In this document: in pieces, positions 41,921 through 46,870 of the stretch
How the letters are laid out: each line of letters begins with the position of its first letter
Numbering within the stretch: position 1 is the first letter of the stretch
Notes under the pieces: generated by a model
What the model was told of the DNA's origin: nothing
What the model saw: the letters and a program-made list of their open reading frames with translations, nothing else
Database searches by the model: none
Source: Flavobacterium aciduliphilum
Lineage (GTDB): Bacteria; Bacteroidota; Bacteroidia; Flavobacteriales; Flavobacteriaceae
DNA length: 64,000 nucleotides
NCBI RefSeq assembly: GCF_003268855.1
Contig: NZ_QLSZ01000005.1
Span: forward strand, 1 to 64,000
Direction of reading: 5' to 3'
Translations under genes and position numbers: made by a program

Positions 41921-42005
41921 CAACATAGGTTTTTAATTTTATAATTTATTTAGAATTATTATTCTTGAATACTATTGCAAATAATTGTTATACAACATTC
42001 TACTA

Positions 42006-42689
42006 ATGCCTTTTTACAAAAAAATAGCTTTACCAAACAACACAAGCCTATATCTTTGGAAAATTACTGAAGATTTAGATTTTTTTCGACAACAAGTATC
42101 CTTGAATGAAAATTCAAAAAAAAGATTACTTACGATGAAATCAGAAAGTCATCAGAAAGGATTTTTAGCAGTACGAATGTTATTACAACACCTTAATTTC
42201 TCAGATTTTAATTTGAATTATGATGCATCAGGAAAACCATATTTGTATGGTGCTTCTCAAACCAACACTTTTTTGAAAGAAACGCCAATAACATCACACA
42301 TATCCATTTCGCATTCTCATGATTTTTCCGCTCTAGCTTTTAGCCGTTTACCCATAGGAATTGATATTGAATTAATCAAAGATAAGACTCTCAAAATAGC
42401 CTCTCGGTATATGGATATAAATCATTTAGAACAACTCACAATAGAAAAGAAACTAGAAAAGGCAACCGTGATTTGGGGAGTAAAAGAGAGTGTGTTCAAA
42501 ATTAAGAACAATGAGGGGATTAGTTTTTTAAATCACATTCAAGAAGACGCATTTAATCTTGAAGACAAAAAAACAATTGCTACCCTCAAATTTAATGGCA
42601 TGGAAGAAACGTTTGAGATTTATTTTGATACTTTTGAACAATATGTCTTTGTTTGTGCTATGCAAAATGACGAGTTAGCCTATGAATAA
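42006..42689 (+). CDS. 4'-phosphopantetheinyl transferase superfamily protein
   Basis: The 227-residue protein has the Sfp-type signatures: LPIGIDIELIKD with the Mg-binding acids (G-x-D-x-E), and WGVKESVFKI (W-x-x-K-E-x-x-x-K) near residue 160. An earlier conserved part reads SHISISHSHDFSALAF. It transfers phosphopantetheine from CoA to a carrier protein; whether the partner is the fatty-acid ACP or a secondary-metabolite carrier is unknown. I choose the ATG at 42006 over the TTG at 41985. Its stop overlaps the start of the GGGP synthase by 8 bases, so the genes are translationally coupled. Confidence 0.87.
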   Translation: MPFYKKIALPNNTSLYLWKITEDLDFFRQQVSLNENSKKRLLTMKSESHQKGFLAVRMLLQHLNFSDFNLNYDASGKPYLYGASQTNTFLKETPITSHISISHSHDFSALAFSRLPIGIDIELIKDKTLKIASRYMDINHLEQLTIEKKLEKATVIWGVKESVFKIKNNEGISFLNHIQEDAFNLEDKKTIATLKFNGMEETFEIYFDTFEQYVFVCAMQNDELAYE

Positions 42690-43398
42690 CATTTACAATG
42701 AAATTTGCCAAGCCAAACATAAAAGTCAAAAATTATTGGCTATTTTACTAGATCCCGAAAAGATTGTTTTAGAAAATTTCTTAGAGTTAATTAGAAAAAT
42801 AAAAGCATCACCTGCAACCCATGTTTTTGTTGGAGGCAGTACCTATGACGGTGGAGATATGGACAAAATCATTCTTTTATTAAAACAAAACCTAACGATT
42901 CCCATACTCATTTTTCCAGGACATCCTTCTCAAATATCTCGTTTTGCTGACGGTCTTTTATTTTTGATGTTATTATCAGGAAGAAATCCCGATTATCTTA
43001 TTGGCTACCAAGTGGAAGCAATTCCATATATATCAAATACAACTATTGAGGTTATTTCCACAGGCTATTTGCTCATTGAAAGCGGTATAGAAACTACCGT
43101 TCAAAAAGTGAGTAAAACAAAACCCATTCATCGAAATGATAATCAATTGGCCATGCAAACAGCACTTGCGGGCGTATTAATTGGAAACAAAATAATCTAC
43201 CTTGAAGCAGGAAGTGGGGCGCAATATCCTGTTCCCACAGATATGATTCGCACAGTTGCTCAATATTGCAATGTCCCCCTAATTGTTGGTGGAGGCATTC
43301 GTTGTCGAAGAGATATTGATAATGCCTATGAGGCTGGAGCAACGTTGGTTGTTATTGGAACAGCCTTTGAAAATGACCCTAATTTTTTCACTACGTAA
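42682..43398 (+). CDS. Geranylgeranylglyceryl phosphate synthase family protein (PcrB/GGGPS)
   Basis: The 238-residue TIM barrel shows the family motifs: LLAILLDPEK near residue 18, HVFVGGSTYDGG, PILIFPGHPSQIS, LLSGRNPDYLIG, YLEAGSGAQYPVP, and the phosphate-binding end IVGGGIRCRRDIDNAYEAGATLVVIGTAFE. The enzyme joins an isoprenyl diphosphate to sn-glycerol 1-phosphate, the first committed step of archaeal ether lipids. A related F. johnsoniae enzyme has been studied as a group II GGGPS. Product chain length cannot be read here. It is coupled to the PPTase gene (8-base overlap) and followed by pnuC. Confidence 0.9.
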   Translation: MNNIYNEICQAKHKSQKLLAILLDPEKIVLENFLELIRKIKASPATHVFVGGSTYDGGDMDKIILLLKQNLTIPILIFPGHPSQISRFADGLLFLMLLSGRNPDYLIGYQVEAIPYISNTTIEVISTGYLLIESGIETTVQKVSKTKPIHRNDNQLAMQTALAGVLIGNKIIYLEAGSGAQYPVPTDMIRTVAQYCNVPLIVGGGIRCRRDIDNAYEAGATLVVIGTAFENDPNFFTT

Positions 43399-43408
43399 CG
43401 AATTTAAA

Positions 43409-44029
43409 ATGGTTGATTTTTTTATTGCTCAATACAGACATGCGTCCAATATTCAAATAATTTTGGAGTTTCTTGCGTTTGTTTTTGGTATAATTAGTGT
43501 GGTTCTTGCCAAAAAGGAACATATTGGTGTATACCCTACAGGTTTAGTATCTACAATTATTACCGTTTATTTATTATATAAAGCCTGCTATTTTGGAGAC
43601 ATGACGATGAATATTTACTATTCTATTATGAGTATATATGGTTGGTACAAATGGAAAGTTCACAAAAATGCAATGGAATTACAAATTAGTTATACTAATG
43701 CAAAAGAAAAACGTATAGGATTTGGATTTTTCATCCTTACGATACTAATTACTTATTTTGTGTATGATTTTTTTGATTATACACTTGAAATTCCTAATTA
43801 TATTGATATTTTTACATCTGGAATTTTTTTTACTGCGATGTGGTACATGGCGTTAAAAAAAATAGAAAATTGGACACTTTGGATTTTGGGTGATTGCATT
43901 GCGGTGCCACTATTTGCATATAGAGGGCTCGGCATGTTATCGCTACAATATCTCATCTTTACAATATTAGCTATTATAGCCTTAAAAGAATGGAAGAAAA
44001 CCTTAAACAAAAGCAAAGTAATGTTGTAA
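43409..44029 (+). CDS. pnuC: Nicotinamide riboside transporter PnuC
   Basis: The 206-residue membrane protein has about seven helices. Its PnuC features are EFLAFVFGIISVVLAKKEH, GVYPTGLVSTIITVYLLYKA and YYSIMSIYGWYKW, the last being the substrate-pocket W-x-x-W-like region. A further helix carries GDCIAVPLFAYRGLGMLSLQY. PnuC imports nicotinamide riboside by facilitated diffusion, driven by intracellular phosphorylation. A longer reading would overlap the GGGPS gene by more than 100 bases; the ATG at 43409 is at the family N-terminus, 10 bases after GGGPS. Its end overlaps the NadR-like gene by 40 bases, tying transport to the kinase. Confidence 0.92.
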   Translation: MVDFFIAQYRHASNIQIILEFLAFVFGIISVVLAKKEHIGVYPTGLVSTIITVYLLYKACYFGDMTMNIYYSIMSIYGWYKWKVHKNAMELQISYTNAKEKRIGFGFFILTILITYFVYDFFDYTLEIPNYIDIFTSGIFFTAMWYMALKKIENWTLWILGDCIAVPLFAYRGLGMLSLQYLIFTILAIIALKEWKKTLNKSKVML

Positions 44030-46110
44030 AAATTGCATTGTTTGGACCAGAATCAACGGGAAAAACAACCTTAGCAAAACAACTGGCAACCGAATACAAT
44101 ACGTCTTGGATTCCTGAATTTGCACGTGATTATTTGCAGAAAAAATGGGATTCTAATAAAGGAATTTGCGAACCCAATGATTTGTTACCAATTGCGATAG
44201 GACAAATTACTCTAGAAAATGAAGCACTATCCATCGCCAATCAAATTCTTTTTTGTGATACGAATGTATTTCTAACAAAAGTTTTTTCTGATTTGTATTA
44301 TGGAAGTTGTGACCCTTTGATAGAAAAAGCAGCCAAAAAACATACTTATGACTTGATTTTTCTTACTGATAGTGATGTGCCATGGGAGAAAGATGATTTA
44401 AGAGATCGCCCAGAAAACAGAGAAGAAATTGCCACATTTTTTGAAAAAAGCTTGGTACAGTATAACAAACCTTACATAAAATTATCAGGGAATAAAGAAG
44501 AACGTCTCAATAAAGCGAAGAAAATAATAGATGATTTCTTTGAAGCAAGAAAGTTAGGGTTTACTTCTAGGGATTTTGTATCTATTTACAACAGGGGTGT
44601 CTCACTAAAAACCGTAAAATTCCAGTTTGATATTCTCAAAAATGGCATCCCAAAAATCAATCTTGATAGACCGGCGATATTACATGATGGCATAATGCCG
44701 ATGTCTAAAGAAGAAGCTTTATATTTTTCGAATTATTTTGATGAAAAGAAAAACAGTTTAAAGCTAAAAAAATTCGTACCCGCATCAGGAGCCGCAAGCA
44801 GAATGTTTAAATTCTTAAGTGAATTTGTCAATGAGTACAAACTAGGTGAAGAGTCTATAAACGCCTATATAAATAGAAAAAACGACTCAAGTTTATCTGT
44901 TTTTATTGTGGCAAAAGAGAAGCTTCCTTTTTACAAAGAAGTTTTAAAAAAAACTAAAGAAGCACTACCAGATTATGAAACTTGTGATAGTGATGTTCAG
45001 GATTATTGGTTCATTAAAACCATGCTTTCCGCTTCTTACTTTGATTATGCAAATAAGCCAAAAGGAGTGCTACCCTTTCATAAATATGAATCACATATAG
45101 CAACGGCCATTGAAGAACATTTAAATGAATGCGTTTATTATGCTGTCTCAAATTCAAATTCGTATCTTCATTTTACAGTTTCTGAGGAGCATCAAAGGAG
45201 TTTTGAAACTATTATAGCGTCTGTAAAAAACAAAGTTGAACAAGAGGCTAATGTTTCCATTCAGGTAAAATTTTCCTATCAAGATAAAGCCACTGATGTA
45301 ATTGCTGTTGATGGTCTAGGAAATCCATTTCGAGGTGAAAATGATGAACTTCTTTTTCGTCCAGGCGGTCATGGTGCTTTAATAGAAAACCTAAATGCAT
45401 TAAACTCTGATATCGTATTTGTTAAAAACATTGACAATGTGATTCAAAATCATCTTGATGTAATTTCGCTCTATAAAAAGGCGTTGGCTGGTATTCTTGT
45501 TCAGTTTCAGGAACAGATTTTTAATTATCTGAAAAAACTTCAATCAGATGCAATTTCAAATGATGAGTTGAATGAAATTGCTAGTTATATTTCCTCAAAA
45601 TTAAATATTTCGATAAAAGAAGATTTCTATAGATATACTAAAGAATACAAAATAGGGCATCTCGTAACTCTATTGAATAGACCAATTCGTGTTTGTGGAA
45701 TGGTTAAAAATGAAGGAGAACCTGGAGGAGGTCCTTTTTGGGTTACAGACAAAAAAGGAAAAACATTTCTTCAAATTGTTGAGTCTTCTCAAATTGCAAC
45801 AAAAGACGAAAAGCAATTAGAAATATTTAATAAAGCGACCCACTTTAACCCTGTAGATTTGGTTTGCGGAATTAAAGACTTTAAAGGTCAGAAATTTGAC
45901 TTAACTAAATTTGTTGATGCCAATTCGGGATTTGTTGTTGAAAAAAATAAAAATGGAAAGCCTTACAAAGCATTCGAGCTTCCTGGTTTATGGAATGGTG
46001 CAATGGCCAAATGGTTAACTATTTTTGTTGAAGTACCTTTAATCACGTTTAATCCAGTTAAAACAGTAAACGACTTACTAAAACCGGCCCATCAACATAT
46101 GGGTTTGTAA
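43990..46110 (+). CDS. Fusion of NadR-like ribosylnicotinamide kinase domain and DUF4301
   Basis: This 706-residue protein has two parts. Residues 1-185 are a NadR-type P-loop kinase: ALFGPESTGKTTLAKQLA, EFARDYLQK, LFCDTNVFLTKVFSD and the lid DLRDRPENREE. It would phosphorylate nicotinamide riboside brought in by PnuC, encoded just upstream with a 40-base overlap. Residues 200-706 are DUF4301, an uncharacterised Bacteroidota domain. This has KFVPASGAASRMFKF, reminiscent of the G-x-G-x-R-M loop of sugar nucleotidyltransferases, and FRPGGHGALIENLNAL. The adenylyltransferase domain of classical NadR is absent. The linker (residues 185-200) has no stop or frameshift, so the fusion is real in this sequence. 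Confidence 0.85.
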   Translation: MEENLKQKQSNVVKIALFGPESTGKTTLAKQLATEYNTSWIPEFARDYLQKKWDSNKGICEPNDLLPIAIGQITLENEALSIANQILFCDTNVFLTKVFSDLYYGSCDPLIEKAAKKHTYDLIFLTDSDVPWEKDDLRDRPENREEIATFFEKSLVQYNKPYIKLSGNKEERLNKAKKIIDDFFEARKLGFTSRDFVSIYNRGVSLKTVKFQFDILKNGIPKINLDRPAILHDGIMPMSKEEALYFSNYFDEKKNSLKLKKFVPASGAASRMFKFLSEFVNEYKLGEESINAYINRKNDSSLSVFIVAKEKLPFYKEVLKKTKEALPDYETCDSDVQDYWFIKTMLSASYFDYANKPKGVLPFHKYESHIATAIEEHLNECVYYAVSNSNSYLHFTVSEEHQRSFETIIASVKNKVEQEANVSIQVKFSYQDKATDVIAVDGLGNPFRGENDELLFRPGGHGALIENLNALNSDIVFVKNIDNVIQNHLDVISLYKKALAGILVQFQEQIFNYLKKLQSDAISNDELNEIASYISSKLNISIKEDFYRYTKEYKIGHLVTLLNRPIRVCGMVKNEGEPGGGPFWVTDKKGKTFLQIVESSQIATKDEKQLEIFNKATHFNPVDLVCGIKDFKGQKFDLTKFVDANSGFVVEKNKNGKPYKAFELPGLWNGAMAKWLTIFVEVPLITFNPVKTVNDLLKPAHQHMGL

Positions 46111-46167: not shown

Positions 46168-46428
46168 TTATGCTTCAAAAGGAATTATTGATACATAAGA
46201 TTTTTCATTAGCTTTCTTTTGGAATTTTACAATCCCATCAACTTTAGCGTGTAAAGTATGATCATTACCCATGTAAACGTTTTCACCTGGATTATGTTTT
46301 GATCCTCTTTGTCTAACGATTATGTTTCCAGCAATAGCAGCTTGACCACCAAAAATCTTAACGCCTAAACGTTTAGAATGTGATTCTCTACCATTCTTCG
46401 AACTACCGACACCTTTCTTGTGAGCCAT
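46168..46428 (-). CDS. rpmA: Ribosomal protein bL27
   Basis: The 86-residue protein starts [23 protein letters not shown] and has [25 protein letters not shown], the bL27 core. Its N-terminal arm reaches the peptidyl-transferase centre. No N-terminal processing extension like that in Firmicutes is present. It lies 22 bases after rplU in the usual rplU-rpmA operon. Confidence 0.98.
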
Positions 46429-46450
46429 GATGTTTTGGTTTTATTAGTTA

Positions 46451-46870
46451 TTACTCTTGACTTTCAGTCTTTTTTGTTTTCTTTGTAGCAGCTACCACGT
46501 CTTCTTCCGTTTTTTCTGCTTTTGGAGCGGCTTCTTTCTTAGCTGCTTTTTTCGTACCTGTTGCCACAATCCCTTCAATTAGGATTTGTGTAAAACTTTG
46601 ACGATGACCATTTTTCTTTTTGTAACCTTTTCTTCTTTTTTTCTTGAAAACAATTACCTTATCTCCTTTTAAGTGTTGTAACACTTTTGCTTCTACAGAA
46701 GCACCTTCTATAGCTGGGGCGCCTAAAGTTACTGTTCCGTTGTCATCCAATAAAAGAACTTTGTCAAAAGAAACTTTTGAACCTTCTTCTTGAGCCAAAC
46801 GATGCACATAAACCTTTAAGTCTTTGCTTACTTTGAATTGTTGCCCTGCTATCTCTACGATTGCGTACAT
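46451..46870 (-). CDS. rplU: Ribosomal protein bL21 with charged C-terminal extension
   Basis: The 139-residue protein has the bL21 domain in residues 1-103: [24 protein letters not shown], then [21 protein letters not shown]. Beyond this is a 35-residue Lys/Glu/Ala tail ([19 protein letters not shown]), absent from E. coli bL21 but common in Bacteroidota. First gene of rplU-rpmA, with an exact -7 box 32 bases upstream. Confidence 0.97.

Follow-up and report, generated by a model that had tools for sequence, protein, structure and literature searches.

A NadR-type kinase fused to DUF4301 in Flavobacterium aciduliphilum: a candidate thiamine kinase joined to a predicted UDP-glucose-pyrophosphorylase-like enzyme

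In a 64,000-nucleotide stretch of Flavobacterium aciduliphilum DNA (contig NZ_QLSZ01000005.1, positions 1 to 64,000 of the forward strand; hereafter the window), one gene at 43990-46110 (+) joins a NadR-like kinase to the domain DUF4301, two enzymes that most other genera of the family encode separately. On balance, and with some reserve, we favour the reading that the kinase half forms thiamine monophosphate (TMP) and is fused to a functionally independent DUF4301 enzyme of the UDP-glucose pyrophosphorylase (UGPase) type. The parts of this reading differ in strength. Structure modelling makes a UGPase-like fold and nucleotidyl chemistry very probable for DUF4301, the chances that its substrate is a sugar-1-phosphate are about even, and distribution and genomic context make thiamine the likely kinase substrate across the family.

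The fused gene and the predicted fold of DUF4301

The open reading frame (ORF) listing of the window gives a single unbroken frame of 706 amino acids (aa) with an ATG start. Pfam searches placed AAA_28 at residues 14-172 (E 3e-41) and DUF4301 (PF14134) at residues 193-702 (E 6.9e-200), confirming the first-pass annotation, which had described a NadR-type P-loop kinase and DUF4301 in one frame. The kinase domain occupies residues 1-187 (43990-44550), with the Walker A loop GPESTGKT at residues 19-26 (44044-44067) by translation and kinase alignment, and DUF4301 spans 44566-46095, all on the plus strand. The NCBIfam model for NadR (TIGR01526) covers the kinase half only (positions 162-321 of the 325 in the model; 106 bits, where the cut-off is 341). 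In the fused protein, Pfam gave no match at E<=0.1 to CTP_transf_like, the nicotinamide mononucleotide (NMN) adenylyltransferase (NMNAT) domain, or to thiamine pyrophosphokinase (TPK; PF04263). The window kinase, itself one row of the 13-row alignment that defines 21 invariant residues, keeps them; decay of the kinase in the window was ruled out, unlike in loci L008 and L046. DUF4301 has a single match in the 2.74 Mb genome (G000). A second AAA_28 protein in that genome (L190:5834-6364) has the Walker A loop GGPGTGKT, lies away from pnuC and belongs to a different family.

An AlphaFold2 model of DUF4301, built on a 22-sequence alignment, reached a mean pLDDT of 88.9 and a pTM of 0.89. All 50 matches listed by Foldseek against the PDB are pyrophosphorylases of UDP-N-acetylglucosamine (UDP-GlcNAc), UDP-glucose or UDP-sugars, the best with an E-value of 2.8e-10. 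VIA-align superposed the model on yeast Ugp1p with Z 23.6 (rmsd 3.4 over 326 residues, 18% identity), with Z of about 20 to UDP-GlcNAc pyrophosphorylases and 16 to GlmU, and in a viral structure library the hits were a UGPase of Klosneuvirus (E 3e-9), a single phage protein (E 1e-4) and otherwise weak rows. NMNAT-fold structures were not among the 50 Foldseek or the VIA matches listed, which is no test of their absence. The model predicts a UGPase-type nucleotidyltransferase fold of the GT-A class.

Four motifs, KFVPASGAA[ST]RM, RPxGHGAL, [FY]xKN[IV]DN and [NS]PVKT, occur in that order in all 22 aligned DUF4301 proteins. They were equated by eye with stretches of UGPases in the PDB, the human counterparts being KLNGGLGTSMG, YPPGHGD, FVSNIDN and LPVKTTSDLL. 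In the window they read KFVPASGAASRMFK at 44770-44811, the equivalent of the G-loop (UGPase KLNGGLGTSMGCKGPK), RPGGHGAL at 45358-45381, FVKNIDN at 45418-45438 and NPVKTVNDLL at 46051-46080. A nucleotidyltransferase role had been guessed for DUF4301 from the motifs PASGAASRMFK and PGGHGAL; these are indeed similar to the G-loop and the PPGHG motif of UGPase, and the guess is borne out by the predicted fold.

Genomic context points the same way in two families. Outside the window's family, 32 of the 33 DUF4301 genomes sampled were fetched with 9-16 kilobases (kb) of context each, and in two of these loci, from two families, a GT3 glycogen synthase lies directly upstream of DUF4301, with a 46-base gap in one (L131:5635-9052) and a 31-base overlap in the other (L132:1138-4508). 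GT3-type glycogen synthase uses UDP-glucose in eukaryotes. Because of the fold, the motifs and this adjacency, our best guess for DUF4301 is a UGPase-type sugar nucleotidyltransferase.

Distribution of DUF4301 and of the fusion

DUF4301 is present in 20 of 31 genomes comprising the window's own and its relatives, and in 66 of a phylum-wide sample of 395. We examined the best 80 of at least 579 relative-encoding stretches from genome contigs, a set that leans to Flavobacteriaceae. The kinase and DUF4301 are fused in 24 of these loci and neighbours in 43, their match ends lying no more than 166 bases apart; in five loci DUF4301 is accompanied by pnuC but no kinase was detected, and in eight neither was. 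Long frames in which DUF4301 carries an N-terminal extension number 47 among loci L001-L130 and L262-L265 (45 distinct, including the window's), so the fusion of kinase and DUF4301 is not a chance frame.

DUF4301 is nevertheless separable from both the kinase and pnuC. It remains in L077, L079, L082 and L086, where neither was detected, and no kinase or pnuC homologue was found near it in any of the 32 loci outside the family (tblastn, E<=1e-3, 9-16 kb). Six of the seven DUF4301 genomes from other classes lack PnuC and AAA_28 matches, and the seventh (G304) has PnuC only. The 32 loci share no close partner of DUF4301 beyond the glycogen synthase of the two loci above and a cation-transporter-like gene in two loci of one family. 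The kinase and DUF4301 are thus fused or adjacent in 67 of the 80 mostly Flavobacteriaceae loci and in none of the 32 outside the family. The first-pass annotation had named relatives with DUF4301 unlinked to NAD genes as evidence that would refute its reading, and such relatives exist.

Thiamine context and distribution of the kinase

In Flavobacteriaceae the usual neighbourhood comprises a thiamine-binding protein, pnuC, the kinase, DUF4301, an ArfB-like protein, a thiamine pyrophosphate (TPP) riboswitch and a TonB receptor. Five genomes of the family without DUF4301 (L172-L176) have the order 4'-phosphopantetheinyl transferase (PPTase), geranylgeranylglyceryl phosphate synthase (GGGPS), Thiamine_BP, pnuC, kinase, ArfB-like RF-1 protein and TonB receptor, with some members missing or interrupted in each locus. 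A custom hidden Markov model (HMM) detected a Thiamine_BP-like gene upstream in 39 of the 43 split loci, in 1 of the 24 fused loci and in none of the 13 loci without a kinase. A TonB receptor homologue lies downstream in 60 of the 80 loci, and thiC is nearby in two (L096 and L118). With a custom covariance model, whose E-values are rough, 69 loci of the 80 showed TPP elements at E<0.01. In 56 the element lies no more than 1.2 kb downstream of DUF4301 and in 13 it is some 5-5.7 kb off; none was found in the other 11. The same model gave no match at E<=0.1 in 36 non-seed control sources (the window, 31 DUF4301 loci of other families, three loci with full NadR, and L190); 31 of the 32 DUF4301 loci outside the family are accordingly without an element, and the exception, L131, is a seed of the model. 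Among 15 pnuC-kinase loci without an adjoining DUF4301 (L172-L186), five carry a TPP element, two of these being seeds. Flavo-1 RNA (RF01705) also matched near L166:13208-13285 and L173:10430-10605.

The PnuC family includes a known substrate shift, from nicotinamide riboside in PnuC to thiamine in PnuT. In a midpoint-rooted tree of 44 rows, only three of which are TPK-linked, all from one family, a 33-row clade (support 96/95) holds the three TPK-linked PnuTs together with most of the kinase- or DUF4301-linked PnuCs. It takes in 11 of 15 PnuCs linked to the kinase only, all 12 linked to both kinase and DUF4301, including the window's, and all six linked to DUF4301 only. Full-NadR-linked PnuCs form a distinct clade (99/98). 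The kinase-linked PnuCs of L180, L181, L184 and L186 fall outside both clades, two of them on long branches.

The window's pnuC (43409-44029, +; PF04973 E 1.7e-47) overlaps the fused gene by 40 bases. Its ATG at 43409 follows the end of GGGPS by a 10-base gap; this frequent upstream neighbour of the PcrB family (42682-43398, +; Pfam PcrB E 3.5e-34) in turn overlaps the PPTase gene upstream (41985-42689, +; ORF listing and Pfam) by 8 bases. The spacings in the first-pass annotation were thus correct. On the 3' side of the fused gene, 46168-46870 (-) encodes proteins read by eye from sequence as L27 and L21, at the position where relatives carry the ArfB-like gene, the TPP element and the TonB receptor.

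The distribution of the kinase was then compared with that of TPK. Set 1 consists of 59 genomes picked on DUF4301 status and kinship before TPK was examined, and was searched with PF13521 for kinases and PF04263 for TPK. An iterated kinase HMM could not tell these kinases apart by score from AAA_28 proteins unrelated to them, and the kinases were sorted by eye on the Walker A loop (GPE[SC]xGK versus G[GA]P[GS]xGK) and on ORF length. Setting aside 14 Flavobacterium genomes and the ambiguous G400, in which a 179-aa kinase with GPESVGK stands alongside TPK, left 44 genomes. An NMNAT-less kinase without TPK occurs in 27 of them, both in none, TPK only in 16 (G219 among them carries a full NadR) and neither in one (G380, also without PnuC); Fisher's test, which ignores phylogeny here and below, gave 4e-11 for this exclusion. 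In the 27 kinase genomes the kinase is unfused in 26 and fused to DUF4301 in one (G227), pnuC adjoins it in 21, and ThiL is above cut-off in all. ThiL had no match at E<=1e-20 in five genomes, and every one of these has TPK.

A second set of 80 further genomes yielded 12 matches to the kinase profile at E<=1e-10. All six genomes outside Flavobacterium with an NMNAT-less kinase (G082, G109, G120, G101, G059 and G125) lack TPK; in two of these the kinase has a GAES Walker loop in a long frame without an NMNAT domain (L272:1441-2676 in G059, L273:1462-2361 in G125). Fisher's test gave 0.01 with all six kinases, 0.048 with the four clear ones and 0.002 if full NadR is counted as a kinase. Full NadR proteins, with the CTP_transf_like domain present in L187, L188, L189, L270, L271 and L274, co-occur with an NMNAT-less kinase in three genomes (G211, G078 and G101).

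Kinases of the NadR type transfer a single phosphate to a hydroxyl group on a cationic vitamin precursor. From distribution and context we infer that a PnuT-type transporter would import thiamine and that the N-terminal kinase beside it would convert thiamine and ATP to TMP and ADP, trapping the vitamin; ThiL would then convert TMP to TPP, and the kinase would fill the role that TPK has elsewhere. DUF4301 would be an NTP:sugar-1-phosphate nucleotidyltransferase whose role is independent of thiamine and NAD. It lies between the kinase and ArfB, sharing the kinase's place in the operon and, in certain lineages, its frame as well.

Alternative readings and known systems

Several observations weigh against the reading of a TMP-forming kinase fused to an independent UGPase-type enzyme. 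The window itself has no TPP element at E<=0.1 in the covariance model search and a gap between GGGPS and pnuC too small for a Thiamine_BP gene. The Rfam TPP model reached its gathering score in just 4 of 42 loci scanned (L131, L176, L179 and L096), and these four matches are the ones from which the covariance model was built; Thiamine_BP exceeds its Pfam cut-off in one of four proteins scanned; and a TPP element is absent from the fetched stretch in 10 of the 15 pnuC-kinase loci without DUF4301. Because no more than 50 candidates per genome were scored in the AAA_28 search, kinases could have been missed. Among the 69 kinase-negative genomes of set 2 outside Flavobacterium, 39 have TPK and 30 do not; the latter include G042 and G063, in which full NadR is the sole kinase, so absence of TPK is not specific to genomes with the NMNAT-less kinase. 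For DUF4301, the Foldseek TMq is about 0.5 (maximum 0.51), Pfam gave no match to UDPGP (PF01704) at E<=0.1 in the fused protein, and a DUF4301 profile against PDB sequences returned one chance-level row only. The scarcity of recognised alternatives speaks for a UGPase-type role, GalU being above cut-off in two of the 59 genomes and UDPGP in one (26 bits), but DUF4301-negative genomes likewise lack both above cut-off, so no complementarity was apparent; GalU-like proteins below cut-off occur in all 59. Finally, in G101 an NMNAT-less kinase is fused to an aldose 1-epimerase (L268:577-2019; PF01263 E 3e-30) and adjoins a PnuC gene (PF04973 E 1e-56), in a genome that also has a full NadR (L274). 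Fusion alone is thus weak evidence of a common pathway here, and both fusion partners of the kinase look like sugar enzymes.

The best-surviving alternative, which we consider unlikely, is that the kinase genuinely acts on nicotinamide riboside and its NMN passes to the general NAD enzymes, DUF4301 being unrelated. The nearest solved relatives of the kinase by sequence are indeed NadR ribosylnicotinamide kinases, which is a further point against thiamine, and it shares with them the same kind of P-loop and common D-T and W..D.LR residues; moreover, as the two genomes with only full NadR illustrate, absence of TPK need not imply a thiamine kinase. This alternative, however, leaves unexplained the mutual exclusion of kinase and TPK outside Flavobacterium, the neighbouring Thiamine_BP, TPP riboswitch and thiC, and the three genomes that hold an NMNAT-less kinase beside a full NadR. 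On the same grounds, and with the placement of the window's PnuC in the PnuT clade, the link of this locus to NAD made in the first-pass annotation is probably wrong.

Flavobacterium itself presents the main weakness of a simple account. TPK was found in all 19 Flavobacterium genomes tested (14 of 14 in set 1, 5 of 5 in set 2), including all ten with the kinase (six in set 1, four in set 2), and these ten carry the kinase in fused form only. In a TPK tree of 30 rows (the 31st TPK, from G020, has no locus and was left out), the set 1 Flavobacterium TPKs group with families f21 and f15 (98/99) and not with the order-mates f5, with long-branch warnings, which suggests horizontal gain of TPK. The kinase is missing in 8 of the 14 set 1 genomes, a point in favour of the thiamine role; one of these (G364) retains an N-terminal remnant without a P-loop beside an intact DUF4301. 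It is conceivable, if somewhat less likely than the nicotinamide riboside kinase, that the kinase half in Flavobacterium no longer serves salvage and has taken on a regulatory or structural role towards DUF4301, being retained through the fusion. Loss of conserved kinase residues in L008 and in L046/L170, with DUF4301 intact, agrees with this. Yet all 21 invariant kinase residues are intact in 42 of the 47 fused frames, and three more frames differ at one position, so mere redundancy with TPK does not account for the fused kinase; judged from sequence, most of the fused kinases probably retain activity alongside TPK.

The two remaining alternatives give DUF4301 a part in the kinase pathway. 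It is improbable that DUF4301 places a nucleotide on the thiamine phosphate made by the kinase, yielding for example adenylated thiamine: the fusion occurs in several genera at a fixed operon position and DUF4301 has a predicted nucleotidyltransferase fold, but outside the family the TPP element is wanting at all but one of its loci, the genes close to it there are a mixed assortment, with glycogen synthase in two cases, and it is retained where pnuC and kinase are undetected. Least probable of all is the scheme of the first-pass annotation, in which nicotinamide riboside enters through PnuC and is turned by the kinase into NMN, from which DUF4301 forms NAD by adenylylation; the NadR-like kinase, the predicted nucleotidyltransferase and their frequent linkage in the family suit it, whereas the UGPase-like motifs, the thiamine context, a PnuC outside the full-NadR-linked clade, the unlinked DUF4301 loci elsewhere and the separate full NadR with its own NMNAT-type domain in G211, G078 and G101 do not.

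Returning to the favoured reading, DUF4301, a domain of about 500 aa, gains a predicted fold and chemistry, and two annotation gaps become testable together. If the reading is right, a kinase hit by NadR models would belong to vitamin B1 salvage, TPK-only searches would overlook such salvage, and predictions of auxotrophy and vitamin exchange for Flavobacteriaceae would change. A broader version is tentative, falling somewhat short of an even chance: the NadR-family kinase may be the unrecognised thiamine kinase of much of Bacteroidota, replacing TPK after a substrate switch made together with its PnuC-family transporter, and DUF4301 an unrecognised branch of the UGPase superfamily that supplies nucleotide sugars where recognised GalU and UDPGP are mostly lacking, the two being fused in Flavobacterium. 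The literature searched, with most subscription papers outside it, yielded no description of a NadR-like thiamine kinase or of a function for DUF4301, a name that occurs in one paper there.

E. coli salvages thiamine with ThiK and ThiL. If the kinase described here makes TMP, the two-step phosphorylation logic is the same and ThiL is present, with a kinase of the NadR family in place of ThiK. NadR (PDB 1lw7, 8x7f and 9x6f) has a homologous kinase domain (phmmer E 7.7e-25 to 9x6f), whereas the fused protein lacks the NMNAT domain, has DUF4301 at its C-terminus instead and stands in a thiamine-type context. Eukaryotic UGPase (UDPGP, PF01704; PDB 2i5k and 4r7p) resembles DUF4301 in predicted fold (about 330 residues, Z 22-24) and in the four ordered motifs, but DUF4301 has no detectable sequence-profile similarity to it and a different G-loop sequence. 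The passages of PMC6593275 examined list ThiL/ThiN and PnuT but name no thiamine kinase of NadR-like type. Another parallel is the pnuT-tnr3 thiamine salvage of Bacteroides with its TPP riboswitches, as set out in PMC5613172: there, as here, a PnuC-family transporter stands beside a putative vitamin-phosphorylating enzyme and a TonB receptor lies under a TPP riboswitch, whereas in Flavobacteriaceae a NadR-type kinase takes the place of TPK/Tnr3 and Thiamine_BP is added.

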